50,597 nt of DNA from a virus. The position numbers were made by a program, and so were the translations under genes. The notes beneath the pieces were generated by a model. The model ran no database searches. It worked only from the letters and a program-made list of their open reading frames with translations, and was not told where the DNA came from. The stretch spans positions 1 to 50,597 of IMG/VR virus record IMGVR_UViG_3300028800_000133; one strand, written 5' to 3'. This document shows positions 7,880-45,567 of the stretch, piece after piece (position 1 is the first letter of the stretch; each line of letters opens with the position of its first letter).

Positions 7880-8057
7880 GTCTCAATCCTTCCTCGTATC
7901 GATAAATAATCACCGCCAACGGCTGCCCGACTCGCCGCTTCAAAAACCACGCCAGACACTTGACGGCGCTGTACTTCTTTCCCTGCCGCTTTGATATTTC
8001 TTTCAAACTCATTCCCTGCGAGAGTAACCGAACCAGTTCCGTTTGTTTCGGGGTCAT
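7869..8057 (-). CDS. Helix-turn-helix protein (sigma-like/LuxR-like)
   Basis: A 62-residue protein whose first 45 residues read as a compact HTH: TELVRLLSQGMSLKEISKR followed by a recognition helix with YSAVK. This resembles region 4 of sigma factors or LuxR/GerE HTH domains. It is a likely DNA-binding regulator. The start overlaps the stop of the SH3-like gene (ATGA). Confidence 0.6.
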   Translation of the reverse strand: MTPKQTELVRLLSQGMSLKEISKRQGKKYSAVKCLAWFLKRRVGQPLAVIIYRYEEGLRHAP

Positions 8058-8485
8058 GGTCGCCTCAGTGTGAAACTACAGGGAAGGTCACAAAAATAAT
8101 CGACGCCATTGATAGTCACGATTACAACTTCGTCTACCGTTGGCGTCGTGGCAATCCGCGTCGGCACTTGCACCACCGGCGTTCGGGTTGCGGTGGGGGT
8201 ACGGGTGGGTGTTAGTGTGGGCGTATTCGTCACCAGAACCACCACATCGCCGCTGACATAGCCGCCAGAACATAGAGCATACCAAGTCACTTCCCTGACA
8301 ACTTGAGTGCCGCATACAGGAACACTCGTACCGCGCCCTATACGATCTATCGGAGTTGATACCAAGTTACCTGGCGTTCCCCTTATATTCGCCCATTGAT
8401 TTATAGGCGTTATGTATCCAAACGATATTACAGTCAATACAGCGAGGGAACCGAAAAATAAATATATTATTCTAGCCATTTCCAT
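8054..8485 (-). CDS. Membrane-anchored SH3-like protein with Thr/Pro linker
   Basis: A 143-residue protein with one N-terminal hydrophobic span (about residues 6-24), a bacterial SH3-like domain containing WANIRGTPGN and later TWYALCSGGYVSG, a Thr/Pro-rich spacer of about 25 residues, and a C-terminal beta segment with two Cys. Bacterial SH3 domains bind cell-wall peptides. A shorter paralogue lies at 9039-9266. The Thr/Pro spacer style is common in secreted Chloroflexota proteins, a weak host clue. A second possible start is ATG 8479. Confidence 0.65.
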   Translation of the reverse strand: MEMARIIYLFFGSLAVLTVISFGYITPINQWANIRGTPGNLVSTPIDRIGRGTSVPVCGTQVVREVTWYALCSGGYVSGDVVVLVTNTPTLTPTRTPTATRTPVVQVPTRIATTPTVDEVVIVTINGVDYFCDLPCSFTLRRP

Positions 8486-31833: not shown

Positions 31834-32697
31834 TTAGTACAGCGCATAAAACGCGTTGATATTGGTTTCTACTGTCTGCCGATTTCCTGCTGATAGTGCC
31901 AAGTCATAAATAACAGTATCAAGCATAAATCCATTGACGAAAGCACCACCATCTTGAGAACCCATCATATTCAATTTCATGCCCGCGCCCACTGTTCCTG
32001 TTCCTGACGCTACACCGTTCTGAAAGAAGCTAATCGTCGGGTTATTTCCAATGTATTCAAGAAGCGATTGAACACTTCTGCCTACCGCTAAAACCGAGGA
32101 CACTGGATTGTTTGCGCCGTCGTAAAGTGAGATTCTATTCGTCGCCGTATTTCTGTATGAAACCTGTCTATTGTCCGTGTGAAACAGGAAAAACTGTTCT
32201 TCCGTTGTTACTGGTGTAGATTTTTGAGACACAAATATACTGAACGTCGCAAGGTTAAAGCTCGTTATGCTTAGCTTATCGGTTGCCGCAAACGTTACGC
32301 CGGGCTTTCCATTCCACGCCGATGCTGTGTATAACGGCTGATTTCCTGCCGTCCCCTGACTCGCATCCCTCGTATTCCCGCTCTGGTCATAAATCTTTGT
32401 TACATAAGCATTAGTAGCGCCGTTTAATATCAGCCACGCCGCAATCGCCGCTACATCCGTCTCGAAGTTCGCGCCCGTGAACCCGAAGTCCATCTCGGTG
32501 TTGCCTGCATCTTCACGCAAACGTATCGCGCTACCTGCATACGCCGCCCTGAGTTTACGGGCTACCGAGTATGCGGCGGCGGCATTCGGCACGAGGTCGA
32601 GCAGGCCGGTGAAAGTGGGCGGGGGCGTAAACGTTCCCACGCCGCCCATCCGCATGGAGCTTCCCATCGTTGACCGACCCCACATCTCCTCTAGCAC
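31834..32697 (-). CDS. Adhesin with arabinofuranosidase-like lectin fold
   Basis: A 287-residue protein. AAYSVARKLRAAYAGSAIRL, then GNTEMDFGFTG, AWLILNGATNAYVTKIYDQS and GNTRDASQGTAGNQP follow the order seen in the beta-sandwich catalytic-like domain of AbfB-type arabinofuranosidases, which recurs in phage virion proteins. Residues 135-285 are a second jelly-roll lectin part. It likely binds host surface sugars; enzymatic activity cannot be judged. The start is GTG 32697. Confidence 0.65.
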   Translation of the reverse strand: MLEEMWGRSTMGSSMRMGGVGTFTPPPTFTGLLDLVPNAAAAYSVARKLRAAYAGSAIRLREDAGNTEMDFGFTGANFETDVAAIAAWLILNGATNAYVTKIYDQSGNTRDASQGTAGNQPLYTASAWNGKPGVTFAATDKLSITSFNLATFSIFVSQKSTPVTTEEQFFLFHTDNRQVSYRNTATNRISLYDGANNPVSSVLAVGRSVQSLLEYIGNNPTISFFQNGVASGTGTVGAGMKLNMMGSQDGGAFVNGFMLDTVIYDLALSAGNRQTVETNINAFYALY

Positions 32698-33498: not shown

Positions 33499-33743
33499 TA
33501 CACTTCCAGCACGGGCAATATTACCCGAATGGTATCCACAGACGCCAGTTTCTGCCCGTGCAAGTCACGGCGTGTTTTCGATACTTCATCATAGGTAAAC
33601 GTGGTGCGTTTTACGATGCGTTCATATTCGGCGTCACGTTTCCAGTTGGGCGGGGGCGTGAAATCGTCGCCGTCCTTGTAGGTGCGCCCGTTTACGATAA
33701 AGGTATCTTCCGGTTTGGTGGTGACTACTTTATATGCTGTCAT
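33498..33743 (-). CDS. Hypothetical protein
   Basis: An 81-residue beta-rich protein (FIVNGRTYKDGDDFTPPPNW). Coupled to the Nudix gene by ATGA, so it shares its transcript. The similarity in style to 33027 (a tag of W-K-R-D or G-K-W-D) may mean both carry a small shared fold. Unknown. Confidence 0.45.
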   Translation of the reverse strand: MTAYKVVTTKPEDTFIVNGRTYKDGDDFTPPPNWKRDAEYERIVKRTTFTYDEVSKTRRDLHGQKLASVDTIRVILPVLEV

Positions 33744-34225
33744 CGGTTAATCTCCAATAGTAATTTTACTTGCTCGGGATACATGGGGTCTGGAATTTCA
33801 GCATCGCCCACATAAAACCATTCTCCGATATTACCCTGCTCACTGCCTCGGAAATCCCCGCCTTCCTTTCGGCATATGAAAACCATAGATATAGATTGTC
33901 TGCCTATGTCGTAATCCCTGTATTCGATGTATCCAATCAATTCGCCAATGGATACAATAAATCCTGTTTCCTCAAGGGCGATGCGTTGTACAGCCTGTGG
34001 AACACTCTCGCCCATCAACACCGTACCACCAGGAATGTGCCAATAACCAATGTTAGGCTGTATGCATCTTTTTGTTAAGAAAACCTTACCATCATCGTAT
34101 TTATCATAAATAAGACAGTCAACGCACAATCTCGGAACTCGTGTGTATATATCGTAGAATTCCTTGCGGCTAAGTTTTTTAACGGTCAATCCTTCAAAGT
34201 TTGGTTCTCTATATGAAATTGACAT
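33740..34225 (-). CDS. Nudix hydrolase, GDP-mannose hydrolase-like
   Basis: A 161-residue protein. The Nudix box runs from G67 to F89: G67, E73, R81, then I82 in place of the usual catalytic Glu, E85, E86 and G88. GYWHIPGG just before it matches the style of Gmm, the GDP-mannose mannosyl hydrolase family, which also replaces that Glu and cleaves sugar from nucleotide. It overlaps the radical SAM gene by 17 bp and is the last enzyme of the sugar cassette, so hydrolysis of a nucleotide sugar is a sensible inference. Confidence 0.7.
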   Translation of the reverse strand: MSISYREPNFEGLTVKKLSRKEFYDIYTRVPRLCVDCLIYDKYDDGKVFLTKRCIQPNIGYWHIPGGTVLMGESVPQAVQRIALEETGFIVSIGELIGYIEYRDYDIGRQSISMVFICRKEGGDFRGSEQGNIGEWFYVGDAEIPDPMYPEQVKLLLEINR

Positions 34226-35273
34226 GCGCTGTGTCTTTCATCACTTCATTCAGTGTCAGGTTTGCAATATGTCCACGGCACATCACCCGGCAATCGCCGT
34301 TCACATGCGCGAGGGTTCGTCGTGCCCAAATATCCGAAAACGACTCATCATTCAAATTACCCATCATCTCCCCGGCGTGCTCGCGCTTGTTGACGCAAGT
34401 CCACACATTGCCATTCGGGGTAATAACCGTAGACAGGCCGCTATAGTAGCAGGTGTTGTAGCCGTGCCCATTCCAGTCCCGGTACATTCGGAATCTGTCA
34501 ATATCAACGATCACTTTGGAGGTAGAGACCCACTCCAACGCCTTAATGCAATCGGTCATCCAAGCCGTATCCTCGGCAGGGCAACCCGGCGCTGTCTGTT
34601 CGTATTGAACAGCGGGTCTAAATTGAATGTAATCCGCCCCTAACTCGTGGCCTAACGCCACCATCGCATCTATTGTACGCCAATTTTCGGAAGAAATCAA
34701 AAAACCGACGCCAATTGTAGCCGTGCCTTTGGCTTCCACCAGGTTGCGAATACCAGCCGTAGCGCGGTCAAAGTAGTCCACGCCCTTGCTCTGGCGGTAG
34801 CTGGTGCGGTCAGGGCAGTCCAGAGACACATAGACCCACATAAACCGCTCTTTCATCATGGCGGCGCGCTCTGGCGAGATATGGCCGCCGTGGGTGTAAA
34901 TGCCCTGTTCGAGCGGGTTGGCCGACGTAATCATGTCAAACTCAGGGTGGAGCGTCGGTTCGCCCCCGCCTGTCCATGTAACCGAGTTGACGCCTGCCAA
35001 TGACAGGTCAGTCAGTATCTTCCGAGCCAGTCGGGTCTCCATCACATCGCCGCCCGCAATTGCGCCATCGGGTTTTTCGCGCTTGCCTGCCAGTAACCCG
35101 CGTGTGTGGGTATACCCAAAGTGACACCATTCACAACCAAGCGAACATCGATTCGTCAGGTCAATCTCGACGTTGACAGGGGGAGGAACGCCGCCCGCCT
35201 TTATCATGGCGAGGCGGTGCGGGTGATGGAAAACCTTTGCGCGAGGGTCGATAAAATTCAACTCAAGCCCCAC
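34209..35273 (-). CDS. Radical SAM enzyme with SPASM-like C-terminus
   Basis: A 354-residue protein. The cluster motif is C43-x3-C47-x2-C50 (CSLGCEWC) after VEIDLTNR; the partial barrel follows with WTGGGEPTLHPEF (GGE motif for SAM). The C-terminal 90 residues hold extra Cys (TCYYSGLSTVITPNGNVWTC, then CRVMC), like SPASM auxiliary clusters. SPASM enzymes modify peptides or sugars by radical chemistry. Overlaps both neighbours by 16-17 bp. Substrate unknown; the surrounding glycosyltransferases favour a sugar or surface peptide. Confidence 0.8.
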   Translation of the reverse strand: MGLELNFIDPRAKVFHHPHRLAMIKAGGVPPPVNVEIDLTNRCSLGCEWCHFGYTHTRGLLAGKREKPDGAIAGGDVMETRLARKILTDLSLAGVNSVTWTGGGEPTLHPEFDMITSANPLEQGIYTHGGHISPERAAMMKERFMWVYVSLDCPDRTSYRQSKGVDYFDRATAGIRNLVEAKGTATIGVGFLISSENWRTIDAMVALGHELGADYIQFRPAVQYEQTAPGCPAEDTAWMTDCIKALEWVSTSKVIVDIDRFRMYRDWNGHGYNTCYYSGLSTVITPNGNVWTCVNKREHAGEMMGNLNDESFSDIWARRTLAHVNGDCRVMCRGHIANLTLNEVMKDTAHVNFI

Positions 35274-35848
35274 TTTTTCATAAAGTATTGCTTGTTTCGT
35301 TCGTGCGTCCCCTGAAACTCAGGCATACCGAACCGCTGCCGCTGGTCAAGGTGGGTGAAGGGCATAGTAACCAGTTCGGTTACATCGTATCCACTCCGTC
35401 TTACTATCATGGAGTAATCTACATCCTCCCAACTACTCACGACATAGTTTTCATCCCATCCATCCACTTCCTCAAACACCTTGCGGCGAGTAAAGACACA
35501 CCAGCCCATCGCAAACGGTATATTATTTACGTGGTGGATTTCACCAAGAATTGAATCGTCTTTATTGGCCTGTAAAATGTAATGGAATTTTTCGTTACAC
35601 ACCACATCATTACTCAAAATAATGTACCAATCCGCATCCGGTGCGAACGTAGCCGCTGTATTGATTGCCTTCGCGTAGCAGGTGCGAGCGGTGTAGCGGA
35701 CAAACGGGTAAGGTGGATAAGGAATCGTACTGCCGTTGTCAATCACGACAATCTCGGTATCGGGTTCGTAGCGTTGGATAGATTCAATCAGCGGCAGGGT
35801 GTACTGTTCCCATCCGTCGATTCCAATAATGAGGGCGGCGATTTTCAT
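35258..35848 (-). CDS. Family 2 glycosyltransferase (GT-A)
   Basis: A 196-residue protein. IVVIDNGST is the nucleotide-binding turn of GT2; IILSNDVV gives the metal-binding acidic motif; DGWDENYVVSSWEDVDYS near residues 140-160 is the acceptor/catalytic base motif typical of rhamnosyl-type GT2 enzymes. No membrane span, so soluble. Coupled to the downstream radical SAM gene and the upstream methyltransferase gene. Confidence 0.8.
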   Translation of the reverse strand: MKIAALIIGIDGWEQYTLPLIESIQRYEPDTEIVVIDNGSTIPYPPYPFVRYTARTCYAKAINTAATFAPDADWYIILSNDVVCNEKFHYILQANKDDSILGEIHHVNNIPFAMGWCVFTRRKVFEEVDGWDENYVVSSWEDVDYSMIVRRSGYDVTELVTMPFTHLDQRQRFGMPEFQGTHERNKQYFMKKWGLS

Positions 35849-36456
35849 AGTCTAATCCATTCCATACATAGACAAGCGCCTGCGTGGGTTTCCATATACT
35901 CAAACGACTTCAATGCCCCTATATGGTTACACAGCACGTATCCGTAAGAGTCGTCGTCATATCCCTGTAGCACCCATCCTTCAACCTCTTTAGACGCGAA
36001 ACTACCATCCAATAAATCATAAAGGTCGTCTGGGTCAAACACCCTCTGCCCGCCATTGGGGTGCGTCGTTAGTTGCGCCCGGCCCACAGGTGCGGTCACA
36101 ATCAGCCTGCCGCCCGTTGCAGTCACCCGCCCCATCTCTGAAACCAAACGCAATAATGCATACGGGTCACTCTCATTCCCGTAGGCGTCCAGACCCACGT
36201 GGTCAAGGACGCTAATGCAAGAAACGCAATCGAATCGCCCCGTCCATTCTGGGGGGAGGTTGCTCGCATCCATCACATAGCCCTCCACGCCGTAAGGCGC
36301 TTCAAACTCCCGTGTGTCAATGGCGGTGACCTTGTGGGCGACCTGTGACAACGCCGCCAGGTACTTGCTGCCTGCCGACCCGATGTCTAACAGGTTGCGT
36401 GCGCCAATGGCATGATTGAGCAGGAACGGTATCTCTCGGCTTCGCTCGGTTAGCAT
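35845..36456 (-). CDS. Class I SAM-dependent methyltransferase
   Basis: A 203-residue protein from ATG 36456, chosen because TAATG overlaps the stop of the GT4 gene; a longer start exists but lies inside it. NLLDIGSAGSKYLAAL is SAM-binding motif I, VTAIDTRE gives the acidic end of strand 2, and FDCVSCISVLDHVG is the motif IV region. Rather like FkbM-neighbour sugar O-methyltransferases in size. It probably methylates a sugar made by the cassette. Confidence 0.75.
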   Translation of the reverse strand: MLTERSREIPFLLNHAIGARNLLDIGSAGSKYLAALSQVAHKVTAIDTREFEAPYGVEGYVMDASNLPPEWTGRFDCVSCISVLDHVGLDAYGNESDPYALLRLVSEMGRVTATGGRLIVTAPVGRAQLTTHPNGGQRVFDPDDLYDLLDGSFASKEVEGWVLQGYDDDSYGYVLCNHIGALKSFEYMETHAGACLCMEWIRL

Positions 36457-37394
36457 TAGTCCATACACTCCAGTGCCCGCAATGCGGCAATCTCCCATGT
36501 GGGCAATTCCAAGTCCGGCATACACCGTTTGTACGACCACGCATCCTCTAGGGCATGGGTGATGCTGTCAAGGCTTGTAGGGTCACAATAGAACGGCGAC
36601 TCACGATAAAACTCAGGCTCACACCCATGCGACCCCGCTACAGTTGGTACTCCAATCGATAGCGCCTCGCCGTGGACTAAACCTGGGTTCTCAAAGAAGG
36701 ACGGCAGGGCATGAACGCGGGCATAGGCGAGTAGCCTGTCGCGTTCCTCGTTGCTGGCGTCTCGAATGATGGTGACCTGATTTCCGGACGCCTCAACCAC
36801 CTGCTGGGTGTATCCCTCACTCGTGGTCTTGCCGACCATAACCAACTTGTAACCCAACCGTTTACACGCCTCCGCCAGCATATATTGATTCTTGTGTGGC
36901 TCGATCCGGCCAATGGATAGCACGTAATCCTCCGGCTCTTGTGCCTCCACGGAGGGTCTGTCAATCCCCATCGGTACAATCCAGACATCCTTGTTTGGCG
37001 CAAGTTTCCAGCACTCCACCGCCTCACTCATAGTCACGGGGAATAGCACATTGGCGAGTCGTAGCGTCTCAGCCACGGCAGGCGTATAGCCCTCAGTCAA
37101 ATCTCGACCCTCGCGCCCAAAGAACGTCTGCCGTTCGGTTCGACTCCACCAGAAGGGGGTCACGAGCAATCGTTTATTCTGTGATGCGACTTCCCGCGCG
37201 GCAGGCAAGCCCCAATCCGGCGAACAGGCTGCCCATAGATGGACGTAATCAAACGAGTCGAGACTGCCCACCTGATTCGCGGAGCGTAACAGCACCTCCA
37301 CGCCCTTGTCGTGCAATGCACCCGCATAACCTTTTAGCGCAACAAAATCGCCGCCGCTGATGGCATTGGGGCGATGGAGAATACACAGTCTCAT
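36456..37394 (-). CDS. Family 4 glycosyltransferase (GT-B)
   Basis: A 312-residue protein. The N-terminal Rossmann part starts MRLCILHRPNAISGGDFVAL; SIGRIEPHKNQYML is the phosphate-binding segment of the C-terminal domain; ENPGLVHGEAL holds the E-x7-E motif of retaining GT4 enzymes that binds the nucleotide sugar. Coupled upstream (ATGA) and downstream (TAATG). Confidence 0.8.
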   Translation of the reverse strand: MRLCILHRPNAISGGDFVALKGYAGALHDKGVEVLLRSANQVGSLDSFDYVHLWAACSPDWGLPAAREVASQNKRLLVTPFWWSRTERQTFFGREGRDLTEGYTPAVAETLRLANVLFPVTMSEAVECWKLAPNKDVWIVPMGIDRPSVEAQEPEDYVLSIGRIEPHKNQYMLAEACKRLGYKLVMVGKTTSEGYTQQVVEASGNQVTIIRDASNEERDRLLAYARVHALPSFFENPGLVHGEALSIGVPTVAGSHGCEPEFYRESPFYCDPTSLDSITHALEDAWSYKRCMPDLELPTWEIAALRALECMD

Positions 37395-37984
37395 TTCCCC
37401 ACCCCGTACACCAACTGATTACCGGGGATACGGTTGTATATCTTTAGACCCGCATCCTCCAGCATCCCCTCAAAGTAGTCGGGGCGGTAGTTCATCCGGT
37501 TGATACTGCCGTGCCAGTTCATTTCAGTATCGGTATGGATGCTGATGCTGGCGCGGCCTATGACGGTCAACACTCGTTTTATTTCATTCAAATATTCCAT
37601 GACATCATCGGGGAATATGTGGGTGAACACGGAATGACAAATTACCAAGTCCATATAGTCGCTGGGTGATAACAGGGTCGTGCTATTTGTCGCCGCAAAT
37701 GCCGCGTCCGGAAACTTTTTCGTGCAATAGGCTATCATCTCAATGCTGACATCGACGCCATAATAATTACAGTCAGGCCATATTCCCTTGACTACAGGAT
37801 AAGTCCGACCTGCCCCGCATCCAATATCCAACACCCTATGAACACCATGCGGTGCTACCTTCCGCAACACATCCCCAATCACCTGCTCGTATTCGTTTCC
37901 CAATCCCGTCACGGCCTGCTCTGCCCCAACGGCGCGGGCATGGTTGTCCCAGTAATCACGATACGCGCTCCAATTATCAGACAT
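37391..37984 (-). CDS. Class I SAM-dependent methyltransferase
   Basis: A 197-residue protein. VLDIGCGAGRTYPVV is a textbook SAM motif I, YYGVDVSIEM gives motif II, and DLVICHSVFTHIF is the motif IV region. Close to the Methyltransf_11/25 type used on small molecules and sugars. The start overlaps the 60-residue ORF by 8 bp. Confidence 0.8.
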   Translation of the reverse strand: MSDNWSAYRDYWDNHARAVGAEQAVTGLGNEYEQVIGDVLRKVAPHGVHRVLDIGCGAGRTYPVVKGIWPDCNYYGVDVSIEMIAYCTKKFPDAAFAATNSTTLLSPSDYMDLVICHSVFTHIFPDDVMEYLNEIKRVLTVIGRASISIHTDTEMNWHGSINRMNYRPDYFEGMLEDAGLKIYNRIPGNQLVYGVGK

Positions 37985-38159
37985 AACTGTAGTCCCAAAA
38001 ATATATCGGTGTATCGCCTGTATTGTTTAGAATGGCGTGGAAACCGAATATTCTAAAAAACGACGCGACATGTGGGTGCTTCCACACCCACTCAGCAGAT
38101 GAACTTGTCTCCATTTTATCCGGCTCAAAACTATATATATAAATCGGCGTATATTTCAT
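37977..38159 (-). CDS. 60-residue ORF between radical SAM and methyltransferase genes
   Basis: ATG 38159 overlaps the stop of the B12-type radical SAM gene (ATGA) and its stop overlaps the methyltransferase start. The product is aromatic (IYIYSFEPDK, EWVWKHPHVASFFRIFGFH, TPIYFWDYSYV) with no Cys. It could be a small partner protein, the remnant of a methyltransferase-like domain, or, speculatively, a peptide substrate. Confidence 0.5.
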   Translation of the reverse strand: MKYTPIYIYSFEPDKMETSSSAEWVWKHPHVASFFRIFGFHAILNNTGDTPIYFWDYSYV

Positions 38160-39466
38160 GCGCTTAGATACGCCCTCCGAACGGCATTGATACGGTCTGC
38201 GGGATAGTCCGGCCACGACACTACCGACTGTACCCCGTTGAACCGGCTAATATCTTCGGTAATCAAATAACCCGCCTGCTTGACTTCATCATAAAAGGGC
38301 GTTCCGGGCTGGGGGGTACTGATGCTGTGTTGCCAGATGTCCAATAGCCCGCGATGTCGCAACTCCAGAACAGAGTCGAGGGTCTCCATGTCACCCTTCT
38401 CGGTTGCACCCTGAGCGCCCACCTGTAACGTTCCATAGGTACGAATGCCGTAGGCTTTGCACCACTCCAGCACCTTAATGAGTTTATCCTCAAACACAAC
38501 CTTGCCGATGCGTTTGCCTACCCCGTCCGATAACGACTCAATCCCGATGCGGATATTTTTGTAATTCGCCATTGCCATTTTACGGATAAGCGGTTGGGTG
38601 AATGTCCAGTACCCGCACATCGCATCATAGGCATACCGATTCAGGCCACGGTCAATAATCCGATCACACAGGGAGTCCAGCCACACCGGATTCGCGTTAT
38701 GCGTTTCCTCGTGGAAGTATGCGCCATTGAATCGCCCGCTGTATTTATTGGCAAGGTATTCCAGTTCATCGCAGACACTATCAACATTCCTGACCCGATG
38801 GCTCTTGTGGCTCTTGCCGTGGCCGCCGTAATACATCGGCACAACACAGAACTTGCAGGCCAACGGGCAGCCACGCGAGGCGTACATTTGCACCATGCCG
38901 GGGTAGGGGTTGCCGAACGGCTCCTCGTATTCAATCCGGCTTACATCGTCATCCTCGGCGAACGGAAGCCAATCCAAATCCACATAGTCGCCTATGGGGT
39001 GGGCGATACGGAACGCATCGGCTATCTGGTATTCGTATTCGCCCTGTAGCAGACTCCATCCGTCCTTCATGGCCTGCGCTGGGTTGTACATCCCATACGG
39101 GCCAGCCAGAAACGCGCCGCCTGTCAGCATACCGCGCTCCCGTAATCCCCTTGCGACTCGCGTCATGGCGGGATAGGTAAGCGCCGAACACTCGGTAATC
39201 AGGATGACGGGTTCTAGTTTAGACAACCGTTCGATATACTGCTCTGCCGATAAACACTCATGGCAACCATCGACCATAATCACGTTCGCCCAATTAGGGG
39301 GGAGGTCGCGCTTGAGCATGGCGGCAGTCAGCCCTAGCTCGTAAGGATAGAAGTCGAAACGCCCATCGACTTTGTGGGCTACGGCAGATGACCAACGTGA
39401 TGGAAATTCAACGACTAAATCTCCATTATCTAATCGCCCTACAGAATTTGCTATGACAATGTTCAT
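38156..39466 (-). CDS. Radical SAM enzyme with B12-binding-like N-terminus
   Basis: A 436-residue protein. Residues 1-180 look like a B12-binding Rossmann domain (GLTAAMLKRD, VIMVDGCHECLS, VILITECSALTY), though the classical D-x-H-x-x-G is not intact. The radical SAM motif C200-x3-C204-x2-C207 (CPLACKFC) follows YASRG. Such enzymes methylate or rearrange unactivated carbons. It sits in the centre of the coupled cassette; substrate unknown. Confidence 0.75.
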   Translation of the reverse strand: MNIVIANSVGRLDNGDLVVEFPSRWSSAVAHKVDGRFDFYPYELGLTAAMLKRDLPPNWANVIMVDGCHECLSAEQYIERLSKLEPVILITECSALTYPAMTRVARGLRERGMLTGGAFLAGPYGMYNPAQAMKDGWSLLQGEYEYQIADAFRIAHPIGDYVDLDWLPFAEDDDVSRIEYEEPFGNPYPGMVQMYASRGCPLACKFCVVPMYYGGHGKSHKSHRVRNVDSVCDELEYLANKYSGRFNGAYFHEETHNANPVWLDSLCDRIIDRGLNRYAYDAMCGYWTFTQPLIRKMAMANYKNIRIGIESLSDGVGKRIGKVVFEDKLIKVLEWCKAYGIRTYGTLQVGAQGATEKGDMETLDSVLELRHRGLLDIWQHSISTPQPGTPFYDEVKQAGYLITEDISRFNGVQSVVSWPDYPADRINAVRRAYLSA

Positions 39467-40386
39467 CTATTTAATATCGTCTCCCATTGCGCCGCACTCT
39501 GTTCCGCTCGCCAGTTCGTCTCGACATCAAAGCGGCCTGCGCTTCCCAGTGATTGGCGCATCTCCAGCATGTGGCACAGGTCGTATAACTCGGCATAGTG
39601 TTCGCCCGTTGTGACAGGCAGTCCACACGCCCACGCGGTCAGCTTCTTGTTATTAGATTTCACCTTCCCCCACGGGCCAGGGTAGGGCGGCAGTAACGCC
39701 ACATCATGCGCGGTCAGTACATCGACTTCCTGCGTCAAATCCCACTTCACATTATATATCGGGAATAGGTCGGTCACTTGCATCGGTGCATCCGGCCTGT
39801 CATCGCAAATCGTCAACTCAATTTTTACCCCATTCGATGCCAGACGCTCAAGATTTGCCAATGCCGCATAGACTGCGATGCGGTTGACTGCCACGCCATA
39901 CCAGATAAAGCGAATAGGAGTATGTTCGGAGTGAACACGTTGACGGGTGAAGTGGTCGAGGTCGAGGCGGTCAGGGATGACACCAACTCTAATGTTCGGA
40001 TCGAAATTTATTGGTTTCTCCCAATTGCAAAAATCTGACATCAAGCCATCACTTGAAAATGTGATTATATTACACAGTGGCGATATTTGCCTTGTAAGGT
40101 CAGGAGACCACCACCACACAGGATCGCATAAATCCCATACTATTTTCTTTCCTAATTCTTTACAGTGTCGAACAACATCAAAATCAAAAGCCGACTGCTT
40201 CTGGAAAACTATGGTATCTGCATTAATGATATGTTTTACCGATTCCACCCACGGTTTTCCGAATATTTCATCCCTGCTCTTTACTTCAACATCATCGGTA
40301 TCCTTCATGTACTTCGCGGGCCAATAGCACCGCATACGGGAACTTCCCCACTCGTAGGGGCCGGAGGAGATAAACAGGGTTTTCAT
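39463..40386 (-). CDS. GT-B type glycosyltransferase
   Basis: A 307-residue protein. The opening FISSGPYEWGSSRMRCYWPA, then KIVWDLCDPVWWW, and a C-terminal KSNNKKLTAWACGLPVTTG are those of GT4-like glycosyltransferases, though the E-x7-E motif is not intact (K-x-N-N-K in its place). Coupled by ATGA on both sides. Confidence 0.7.
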   Translation of the reverse strand: MKTLFISSGPYEWGSSRMRCYWPAKYMKDTDDVEVKSRDEIFGKPWVESVKHIINADTIVFQKQSAFDFDVVRHCKELGKKIVWDLCDPVWWWSPDLTRQISPLCNIITFSSDGLMSDFCNWEKPINFDPNIRVGVIPDRLDLDHFTRQRVHSEHTPIRFIWYGVAVNRIAVYAALANLERLASNGVKIELTICDDRPDAPMQVTDLFPIYNVKWDLTQEVDVLTAHDVALLPPYPGPWGKVKSNNKKLTAWACGLPVTTGEHYAELYDLCHMLEMRQSLGSAGRFDVETNWRAEQSAAQWETILNR

Positions 40387-41282
40387 TTCAACGCCCGCCT
40401 TGCATCCCGAATCAGTTTCCGCTCCGGCTGGACGCCCGCCTGTATCTGTTCGGATTGTTTCTGGATGGTCTCAGCGGGCGTCTGACTGTAATCGTCGGGC
40501 GTGAGCGGGTAGTTGAGCATGTGGGCGGGGCGGACATCGGGGTCACCCATCAACGTATAACCCGCCATTGCCGCAAAGAAAGGGAAACGAATATCAGACC
40601 CTACTGGCGTCTTGACCGCCCGCAAGGGCCGTATTTGTTTTTCGAGTGTGGTGACATGTTCATTCATGGCAGGCCAGAGCGTTGAGGGTGACGGCTTCTC
40701 TTTGGTCAGGGTGCGGAGTGCTTTGATTGCCCCCATAATAGCCCCCAAATCATAAGGCCACAAGTCCATATCGTCCTCAAGGATGGGCAGTTCACCCTCA
40801 AGCAGGGGAAGCATATCAGCGATTACTTTACGGTGGATAAAGATACAGCCCCAGCCGCTTGCGCCCAACTCATGCAGTTTCCCACGCTCTGGGTCACCCG
40901 TCCACGGCTTCATCGGCCATTCACCCGGCTTTCCCTTCTCAAACCACACCGGGGCAATCGGGGCATAGCGGCGGCGCAAATAGTAACCGGACACATACGG
41001 GAGTTTGTGCGAACGCAATCGCTCCAGTGTATCCGGCTCGAATCTCATGTCGTGGTCAAGCAGTAACATGAAACTGTGTTGAGTTTGGTTATACCAGCGG
41101 TCTAAGTGAAGGCCACGCGCCTCGTAGCCTTTGGTGGCACGAATGGGAAGGGGCGGTGTATCCCCATTCCGTCGCTGTAGTCCTTCGATGCTATCCCGGC
41201 ACTCCCCGATTTCATTGTCCCCCCCGACAACGCCGATATAGCATGAACCCGTGTATTGCGGTGTTACTTTATTGTTTTTCAT
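40383..41282 (-). CDS. GT-A type glycosyltransferase, first gene of the cassette
   Basis: A 299-residue protein. FMLLLDHDMRFEPDTL gives the DxD-like metal motif; GASGWGCIFIHRKVI and ILEDDMDLWPYDLG form the acceptor side. The C-terminus is a helical tail. The ATG directly follows a hairpin (41284-41303). It is the first enzyme gene after the terminator-like structure, hence the head of the sugar cassette. Confidence 0.7.
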   Translation of the reverse strand: MKNNKVTPQYTGSCYIGVVGGDNEIGECRDSIEGLQRRNGDTPPLPIRATKGYEARGLHLDRWYNQTQHSFMLLLDHDMRFEPDTLERLRSHKLPYVSGYYLRRRYAPIAPVWFEKGKPGEWPMKPWTGDPERGKLHELGASGWGCIFIHRKVIADMLPLLEGELPILEDDMDLWPYDLGAIMGAIKALRTLTKEKPSPSTLWPAMNEHVTTLEKQIRPLRAVKTPVGSDIRFPFFAAMAGYTLMGDPDVRPAHMLNYPLTPDDYSQTPAETIQKQSEQIQAGVQPERKLIRDARRALK

Positions 41283-41283
41283 A

Positions 41284-41303
41284 GTCTCTGCGCGCTCAGA
41301 GAC
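41284..41303. other. Hairpin next to the cassette start codon
   Basis: GTCTCTG-cgcgct-CAGAGAC, 7 bp around a 6-nt loop. On the minus strand it ends one base before the start codon of the first glycosyltransferase, and could hide or expose its ribosome entry. Confidence 0.55.
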
Positions 41304-41376
41304 AAAAGGCAGCGGGGTCGGTGACGCGCTGATGAGCGCGCACCAGCGGGTCGCCTTACTCCCGCTGCCGTTTGTC
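41301..41376 (-). terminator. Terminator-like long hairpin between head genes and sugar cassette
   Basis: GACAAAAGGCAGCGGG (41301-41316) pairs with CCCGCTGCCGTTTGTC (41361-41376), 15 of 16. Inside, GGTG/CACC and CGCGCT-gatg-AGCGCG make a second stem. Leftward, the GC stem is followed by TTTTG, so it can act as an intrinsic terminator or attenuator for capsid transcripts. Confidence 0.6.
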
Positions 41377-41385
41377 GATAATCAG

Positions 41386-41637
41386 TTACCCGGTAATCAG
41401 GGCGGTTGTTGCACAATACCGCCATGTGGTTCCCGTGGTGTTGACCGCTAACCGGGTCACACCCGTAGAGTTTTCAATCACGGCAATTTTTGCCAGTGTT
41501 TGAGTGCTTGGCAGGGCGGTACGGGTCGTAACCACATACCCAGTCGTATTTGCGCCCATCACCAAACCGGACGGGCCAAGATTAATTTGTTGCTTTGCCC
41601 ACAAACCGCGTGGAGAACTTTGAGGATGTCCAGCCAT
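41386..41637 (-). CDS. Small head-region protein
   Basis: An 83-residue beta-rich protein (GANTTGYVVTTRTALPSTQT), following the capsid gene. AAGGA precedes the ATG. It may be a second decoration or cement protein. It ends just before the terminator-like hairpin, so it is the last cistron of the head operon. Confidence 0.5.
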   Translation of the reverse strand: MAGHPQSSPRGLWAKQQINLGPSGLVMGANTTGYVVTTRTALPSTQTLAKIAVIENSTGVTRLAVNTTGTTWRYCATTALITG

Positions 41638-41669: not shown

Positions 41670-42617
41670 TTACACTACGTCCAAAAACAGGTAGCCGGTG
41701 TCAGCCGCGGTGACTTTCTGATCCCATTGTTCCTTGTGTTGGAAATCGTCGCCGTGATTGCGGCGGGGTGGGTCGCGGTAGATACTGCCCATGCCGCCAC
41801 CTGCCTGCCAGAAGAAGGTCTTGCCAGCAGTCACATCAAACAGGCCTGCGCCCGGATTGACCTGACACACAAGACAGTCATCGTCAATAATGGCAGTGGC
41901 AGAGAAGGCTGCGGCTTCGTTGGTGTTGGAGTACGTCGCCTTGCCAACCCAGTAATTCGCCACACCGAAACAGGCGGCCAGCGCCGACTCGATGTTGGGC
42001 TGGGTTGCAGCCTGCGTGTATTTCACCCGGTCAATAATATCGGGGTGGTTGCGGAGCGCCTGGTCAACGATAAAGCCCATGCTCATAGTATTGGGGTCTA
42101 CACCGGTGTTATTGCTCACGGTGCGGCGGGCGGTCAGGATGTCATTCACCGGGTCAGAGGCGGTGAAATCGTCCCAGTCGGTGGTGGCGTTGTTATCGGT
42201 TGTGCCCCAGACGCCATTGGCGAAGAAGTCGGTCGAGAACTGAACTTCCTTCTCAATCATGGAGGTCTGCGCCACCTGCCGAAGGAAGGTCTGCTCAAGA
42301 GACAACGGAATCTGTGAGTTATCACGAATTTCGTCAGGGATATTGAAACCGAGGGCGTTCTGGATGGTGACAAAGGTATCCGTCTCCACACCCTGCGAGA
42401 TGTACTGGAAGTCACCACCCGGCGCACGTGGTTTCAGTGAGCGCATAAAGAAATATTTCTTGGTGAAAATCCAGTATTGGCCGCTGTCCTTTTCGATAGC
42501 GACAGGCGGGAACAGGCGTGACGCCAGAAAGCGGTCATCCGCCTGCATGTATCCAATCAGGAAGTTGGTAAGTACCGGCTCGTAGGCCTGTACCTGGTTG
42601 ATGGTAGGTGTTGCCAT
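41670..42617 (-). CDS. Major capsid protein (HK97 fold)
   Basis: A 315-residue protein. FLASRLFPPVAIEKDSGQYW, then RAPGGDFQYIS, IPDEIRDNSQIPLSLEQTF, and the C-terminal DYxxLF-like strand follow the layout of HK97-fold capsid proteins of the group with a separate scaffold protease. About 400 copies form the shell. It follows the protease and decoration genes in the usual order. GGGAGA precedes the ATG. Confidence 0.85.
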   Translation of the reverse strand: MATPTINQVQAYEPVLTNFLIGYMQADDRFLASRLFPPVAIEKDSGQYWIFTKKYFFMRSLKPRAPGGDFQYISQGVETDTFVTIQNALGFNIPDEIRDNSQIPLSLEQTFLRQVAQTSMIEKEVQFSTDFFANGVWGTTDNNATTDWDDFTASDPVNDILTARRTVSNNTGVDPNTMSMGFIVDQALRNHPDIIDRVKYTQAATQPNIESALAACFGVANYWVGKATYSNTNEAAAFSATAIIDDDCLVCQVNPGAGLFDVTAGKTFFWQAGGGMGSIYRDPPRRNHGDDFQHKEQWDQKVTAADTGYLFLDVV

Positions 42618-44845: not shown

Positions 44846-44857
44846 CGGTCTTTATCC
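44842..44857. repeat. 16-bp direct repeat, left copy
   Basis: TCATCGGTCTTTATCC, repeated exactly at 45564-45579. The pair brackets the 236-residue zinc-ribbon gene and covers the ATG and leader of the gene on its left. Confidence 0.8.
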
Positions 44858-45567
44858 TAATTCCACTTGTCTCGACTCGGAAGCCACATTGAATATCCCT
44901 GTTGCGCCGATGCACAGGAACGGCAGACCGATAGACCGTTCAGGTCACAGCCACAGTACAGGCAGTTCTTGGATAAGTGGGATATATCGCTGTAAGGCAA
45001 TTCGCCCGCCCCGCAAAACTGGCAATGACTGCATGAGTCGTGATTGACACTATTACAGTAGGCGCACAACCACCCGTCCTCGCGGTGGGTCGTATGCCAT
45101 TCGCCAAACATGTTATCGCTATAGGTTAATTTACCTAACACGAGTAATCGAATCGTAATCAGGTTGAATCCATCTCTACAGCCATTGATATTCAACTCGG
45201 ATGCGGTAAACCTGAATAGACTGTCATATCGACTCTTGGGAACCTTACTGGTTACACCGCTTCCGCAATTCAGGCATTCCACCACACCAGGGCGAACACG
45301 GAATCCGCAGTGACGGCAGATAATCGTATCCCCCAGCCGCGATACCGACAACGGTGCACCCATCATATCAAATAGGCGGGACTGCATGCCTTGAATGTTA
45401 TCGCCCGCAATCAAAGTCAACTCAACCTCGGCACGGCTGGGAGGGCGGACGTATCGGGTTGCTTTTCCGAATATAGACGACGCCTCATATACATCATTGT
45501 CCTGAATAATTTCGGCGCGATACACGGGCAGGCCGATAAAGTTCATATTCTTAGTTTTTGTAATCAT
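44857..45567 (-). CDS. Multi-zinc-ribbon protein, moron-like
   Basis: A 236-residue protein with many Cys pairs: ICRHCGF and CLNCGSG near residues 83-104, CAYC, CQFCG and CLYCG in the C-terminal third. It lies exactly between two 16-bp direct repeats and its removal would leave the neighbours' reading frames intact, which suggests insertion by recombination. Function unknown; zinc ribbons often bind nucleic acid or protein partners. Confidence 0.6.
   Translation of the reverse strand: MITKTKNMNFIGLPVYRAEIIQDNDVYEASSIFGKATRYVRPPSRAEVELTLIAGDNIQGMQSRLFDMMGAPLSVSRLGDTIICRHCGFRVRPGVVECLNCGSGVTSKVPKSRYDSLFRFTASELNINGCRDGFNLITIRLLVLGKLTYSDNMFGEWHTTHREDGWLCAYCNSVNHDSCSHCQFCGAGELPYSDISHLSKNCLYCGCDLNGLSVCRSCASAQQGYSMWLPSRDKWN

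Follow-up and report, generated by a model that had tools for sequence, protein, structure and literature searches.

The DNA analysed here is one entire IMG/VR virus record (IMGVR_UViG_3300028800_000133; 50,597 nucleotides, hereafter the window), from an uncultured tailed phage, and it carries at positions 33740-41282, between the capsid gene and downstream structural genes, a cassette of ten minus-strand open reading frames (Table 1). Successive genes are tightly joined: overlaps of four bases, of the ATGA type, link GT1574 to GT7162, GT7162 to rSAM1, MT1 to GT4, and MT2 to GT2s, longer ones of 8, 16 and 17 bases occur at the 60-residue ORF/MT1, GT2s/rSAM2 and rSAM2/Nudix junctions, respectively, and GT4 meets MT2 at TAATG, provided that MT2 begins at the ATG at 36456. 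The Nudix gene, the last of the cassette, in turn shares an ATGA with the structural-region gene that follows. These coordinates and measured junctions bear out the original prediction of ten consecutive leftward genes with small overlaps, and the family match of the major capsid gene does the same for its adjoining position. The "lectin-like adhesins" proposed for the other flank fared less well, since one of them (31834-32697) matched a family, "virion structural protein", while the others matched none. In the head region, the protein encoded at 44857-45567 is rich in CxxC zinc-ribbon-like motifs.

Table 1. Features of the cassette and its capsid-side flank, in the order in which the minus strand is read.
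Feature	Coordinates	Strand	Match or remark
Major capsid protein, upstream of the cassette	41670..42617	-	phrog_1005, PHROG 7.8e-60
Small gene following the capsid gene, NTTG/NSTG repeats	41386..41637	-	Counterparts at equivalent position in L002, L085, L173
Stem-loop pair between head genes and GT1574	41283..41385	-	-52.8 kcal/mol, z -5.1
GT1574, probable GT-A glycosyltransferase, first cassette gene	40383..41282	-	phrog_1574 (unknown function), E 2e-4
GT7162, probable GT-B/GT4-like glycosyltransferase	39463..40386	-	phrog_7162 glycosyltransferase, E 4e-4
rSAM1, radical SAM enzyme with B12-binding-like N-terminal fold	38156..39466	-	Pfam Radical_SAM 2.8e-10
60-residue ORF	37977..38159	-	Overlaps rSAM1 and MT1
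MT1, class I SAM methyltransferase	37391..37984	-	Methyltransf_25 4.6e-15
GT4, glycosyltransferase family 4	36456..37394	-	Glycos_transf_1 3.1e-16
MT2, methyltransferase	35845..36540	-	Methyltransf_11 2.5e-6; true start perhaps ATG at 36456
GT2s, small GT2 glycosyltransferase	35258..35848	-	phrog_2456 3e-8; Pfam 9e-4, below cut-off
rSAM2, radical SAM/SPASM enzyme, core of the recurrent cassette	34209..35273	-	Radical_SAM 5e-13 and SPASM 5e-7
Nudix hydrolase	33740..34225	-	NUDIX 5.6e-16

The long hairpin foreseen upstream of the cassette is confirmed by its z score and is a candidate terminator. It is a pair of stem-loops, the last of which, 20 nt long, ends immediately before the GT1574 ATG; among the loci fetched for comparison (L numbers), L002 and L173 have this 20-nt hairpin unchanged ahead of the start codon, and strong hairpins stand at the equivalent place in L002, L013, L028 and L085 despite divergence of the sequence. 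Such a hairpin after the head genes would, by attenuation, keep expression of the enzymes below the capsid level. Phage T7, with a terminator after its capsid gene, offers a parallel. As to the small gene between capsid and hairpin, it and its counterparts (41386-41637, L002:713-1036, L085:1759-2172) contain 3, 3 and 4 N[ST]T/NSTG motifs, respectively, for 0.1-0.3 expected in a post hoc count, and NxS/T sequons overall show no enrichment. The idea that the NSTG repeats are N-glycosylation sequons was set aside, because variants such as ADASG and SDSTG occur in L002 and the repeats look rather like a structural turn.

Among the enzymes of the cassette, the two methyltransferases and the Nudix hydrolase are upheld by their Pfam matches, and a count of four glycosyltransferases, as first proposed, is probable. 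GT4 is well supported and has a 60% identical counterpart in L002, the calls for GT2s and GT7162 are weaker, and that for GT1574 is the weakest, since it has no family match above cut-off and its AF2 model is of low confidence (pLDDT 56). That model, whose matches are mostly GT-A folds (STIV A197, COLGALT1, LH3), was judged too weak to serve as stand-alone evidence, and profile searches of the PDB with GT1574, GT7162 and GT2s gave nothing useful. Gene order adds context: GT1574 opens the cassette in relatives that share the window's capsid family and whose contigs run beyond the capsid gene and adjoins GT7162 in L002, L028, L039, L085 and L173 (in L013 a 75-aa ORF lies between them), while GT2s often adjoins radical SAM genes and has relatives, mostly 41-56% identical, in many rSAM2 loci. 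The Nudix gene has no relative among the loci searched, and its GC3 of 0.40, against 0.53-0.69 in the other genes measured, may perhaps mark a recent addition.

The presence of two different radical SAM enzymes, one SPASM-like and the other with a B12-binding-like fold, is established by Pfam matches and, for rSAM1, by a structural model. The AF2 model of rSAM1 is confident (pLDDT 90), and Foldseek places AprD4 (6fd2; TM 0.78) at the top of its matches, followed by TsrM, MgmA, TokK, CysS and OxsB; AprD4 likewise heads the results of a profile search (1e-15). The label "B12-binding-like" holds for the predicted fold, which resembles the cobalamin-dependent radical SAM enzymes TsrM, CysS and OxsB but is nearest to AprD4. 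AprD4, the radical SAM 1,2-diol dehydratase of apramycin biosynthesis, which together with AprD3 deoxygenates an aminoglycoside sugar, matches rSAM1 across most of its length, but at 17% identity and with a different Fe-S cluster motif (CPYPCRFYC, as against CPLACKFC, or CX3CX2C, in rSAM1), and no AprD3-like reductase partner is found among the Pfam matches of the cassette. The best NCBIfam match of rSAM1, though far under the curated score (79 bits for a cut-off of 578), is HpnJ, described as cobalamin-dependent and non-methylating, which makes a cyclitol ether out of a glucosamine-bearing lipid (hopanoid) and whose substrate is a carrier-bound sugar. Bacterial relatives of rSAM1 likewise have sugar-related neighbours: two (L071, L073) lie in polysaccharide-type ABC-transporter/glycosyltransferase/methyltransferase clusters of Patescibacteria-type genomes, with gene identities assigned partly by eye, a third (L072) is beside genes for GT2, PF01973 (which we take to be the Maf flagellin-glycosylation family) and flagellin, and a fourth (L074) is near a DegT-type sugar aminotransferase. 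In rSAM2, four C-terminal cysteines (275, 293, 328, 332) are invariant and the full seven-cysteine SPASM set, for two auxiliary clusters, is absent from the alignment; since four conserved cysteines suffice for one cluster, rSAM2 likely carries a single auxiliary Fe-S cluster. Its best profile matches are mixed.

A search of phage collections for the same gene order recovered the core of the cassette, radical SAM pair included, in structural operons elsewhere. The rSAM1 scan returned 10 IMG/VR contigs and an alignment scan 12, the rSAM2 scan returned 52 (about 30 at 42% identity or more), and gene order was compared in 34 sequences (the window and the fetched loci) plus the podovirus ctQWt234. 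The recurrent order is glycosyltransferase genes, an optional rSAM1, and then rSAM2, usually the last gene. Nearly always beside glycosyltransferase genes in head or tail operons, rSAM2 occupies several different insertion slots, across no fewer than two capsid families. Within the window's capsid family the set follows the capsid gene, in the MCP282 group it sits either between the head-closure gene and an HK97-gp10-like one or between those for capsid and adaptor, and in four loci (L008, L019, L020, L041) it lies between terminase and portal genes. All five neighbour genes tested in other loci match glycosyltransferase families. Loci with rSAM2 but without rSAM1, the rarer of the two, are common, and wherever the contig extends far enough (12 of 12 loci, some near-duplicates: the window, L006, L008, L013-L020 and L070) rSAM2 follows rSAM1 downstream at a distance of no more than about 3 kb. 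The distance matrices of the two enzymes correlate (Mantel r 0.71, p 0.004, n = 9), for which shared phage ancestry could be an alternative cause. On the rSAM2 tree, lineage labels, which are our own and derive from BLASTP clusters (the capsids of some groups may be distantly related), change 7 times for a minimum of 6, so that, judged from this tree, the cassette is inherited mostly within lineages with few transfers between them.

A first capsid scan with a single-protein query found no match, and a capsid-based sample of the MCP282 group revealed a glycosyltransferase gene at the capsid-to-neck junction in 34 of the 36 loci that span it, and rSAM2 in four loci (two from near-identical contigs). 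The original prediction that the gene set is uncommon is thus correct for the two radical SAM enzymes, rSAM1 having no match in 50,697 phage records, but not for glycosyltransferases between capsid and neck genes. In L095, L096 and L142 one slot is empty, with 1 bp between the head-closure and gp10-like genes, and in L091, L100 and L119, of the same layout, the cassette occupies that slot. As the radical SAM genes are missing from most related phages that have glycosyltransferases here, they are, to go by gene content, dispensable in such phages. Two loci of the MCP282 group (L102:15603-16844, L136:4667-5914) encode different B12-type radical SAM enzymes, with the motif GGPHAT in the former and GGPEVT in the latter, whose genes overlap that of a glycosyltransferase by four bases, and genes near 6900-7900 of L020 and at L088:341-1330 are nucleotide-sugar epimerase/dehydratase-like by sequence appearance only.

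Among tailed phages, glycosylated virions are known from a handful of mycobacteriophages. In one of these, Corndog, genes for an O-methyltransferase (gp35) and glycosyltransferases (gp36-38) lie between portal and protease, and capsid modification was proposed for them in 2015 (PMC4351075); passages of later papers, citing Freeman 2023, report its capsid and tail tube as glycosylated (PMC12363180, PMC11600133). The Corndog genes resemble the present cassette in combining glycosyltransferases and methyltransferase within the virion structural operon near head genes, but they differ in their place, in that no radical SAM gene is named among them, and in that Corndog glycosylation is reported whereas that by the present cassette is predicted. 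In the cultured Pontimonas phage phiPsal1 and Microcystis phage Mae-JY09, glycosyltransferase genes lie between capsid and neck, with an added methyltransferase in phiPsal1; no radical SAM gene is annotated at that place, and no functional study of these glycosyltransferase genes was found in the literature. Pelagibacter phage HTVC111P has no glycosyltransferase annotated at a comparable place. Podovirus ctQWt234 (MW202801) comes closer, with a SPASM enzyme directly after the capsid gene and then glycosyltransferases and a methyltransferase, but this enzyme is 27% identical to rSAM2, PhyH and NodB-like genes are present, and rSAM1 is not. The literature searched yielded no description of a phage radical SAM/glycan cassette.

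Because the core recurs in structural operons and the Corndog genes are comparable, we favour, with a probability of about 0.6, a virion-glycosylation cassette that is expressed with head and tail genes and incorporates radical sugar chemistry. This reading builds on what is directly supported, namely the order and overlaps of the genes, the protein folds, the recurrence within structural operons, the pairing of the radical SAM enzymes and the sugar-related context of the bacterial relatives of rSAM1, and from these we infer acceptor, sugar identity and reactions; neither an acceptor protein, nor a nucleotide-sugar synthesis gene, nor a glycan was identified for the window. In the host cytoplasm, the glycosyltransferases would assemble a short sugar chain on one of the structural proteins of the phage, presumably of capsid, neck or tail. 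rSAM1, by its fold and neighbours, would alter a sugar carbon by a radical mechanism, most likely through dehydration/deoxygenation or rearrangement after the manner of AprD4 or HpnJ, and rSAM2 may carry out a further radical modification, of the sugar or of what anchors it, which is the weakest step of the scheme. Both methyltransferases would O-methylate the glycan, and the Nudix protein might handle nucleotide by-products. Recurrence in the structural slots of unrelated phages suggests that phages decorate their own virions with modified sugars of an unusual kind.

Decoration of the host surface and modification of a peptide, both also contemplated originally, are less supported. That the enzymes alter a host polysaccharide while the phage infects or persists as a lysogen, for instance to keep other phages out, is suggested by the surface-polysaccharide-type clusters in which two bacterial relatives of rSAM1 sit and by phage glycosyltransferases known to modify host serotype (from paper text), but appears unlikely, given that the cassette genes are locked in the structural operon both here and in unrelated phages. 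Moreover, no cassette protein has a transmembrane segment (the top mean hydropathy over 19 residues is 1.28), and therefore the cassette has no flippase or membrane glycosyltransferase of the kind used in Gtr-type serotype conversion. Peptides are frequent substrates of SPASM enzymes, and SkfB and PqqE are among the profile matches of rSAM2, as is the protein glutamine methylase MgmA (9ccb) among the fold matches of rSAM1, all of which would fit radical SAM enzymes acting on side chains of virion proteins or on a small peptide such as the 60-residue ORF. We nonetheless consider this improbable: glycosyltransferases accompany rSAM2 almost everywhere, AprD4 outranks MgmA as a match for rSAM1, and the 60-residue ORF has no family match and no relative in any locus searched, for which reason its candidacy as a RiPP precursor was dropped. 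Hypermodification, by glycosyltransferases and radical SAM enzymes, of bases of the phage genome is most improbable, for although virus glycosyltransferases acting on DNA have been described (Pyle 2024, as cited in a passage of PMC12619734), the source record, which may be incomplete, has no TET/JBP, thymidylate-synthase-like or C5 DNA methylase match, the cassette is placed among structural genes, and the loci that harbour cellular relatives of rSAM1 concern surface glycans or flagellin.

Taken as decoration of the virion, the cassette ties virion glycosylation to radical sugar chemistry, points to glycan-building genes as a common feature of the head-to-neck interval in environmental phages, and supplies defined genes, partners and candidate reactions for testing. 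More tentatively, it may be a dedicated and exchangeable module for virion glycans, common to unrelated phages from the environment, with two radical SAM enzymes that remodel the sugars of the particle, for example into deoxy or ring-altered forms. Among 400 genomes of the phylum of G001, the Chloroflexi MAG that holds L070, rSAM2 occurs in one, G001 itself. A TPT-repeat protein encoded at 8054-8485 of the window resembles Chloroflexota proteins, which, with the location of L070 in a Chloroflexi MAG, gives a weak hint of the host.
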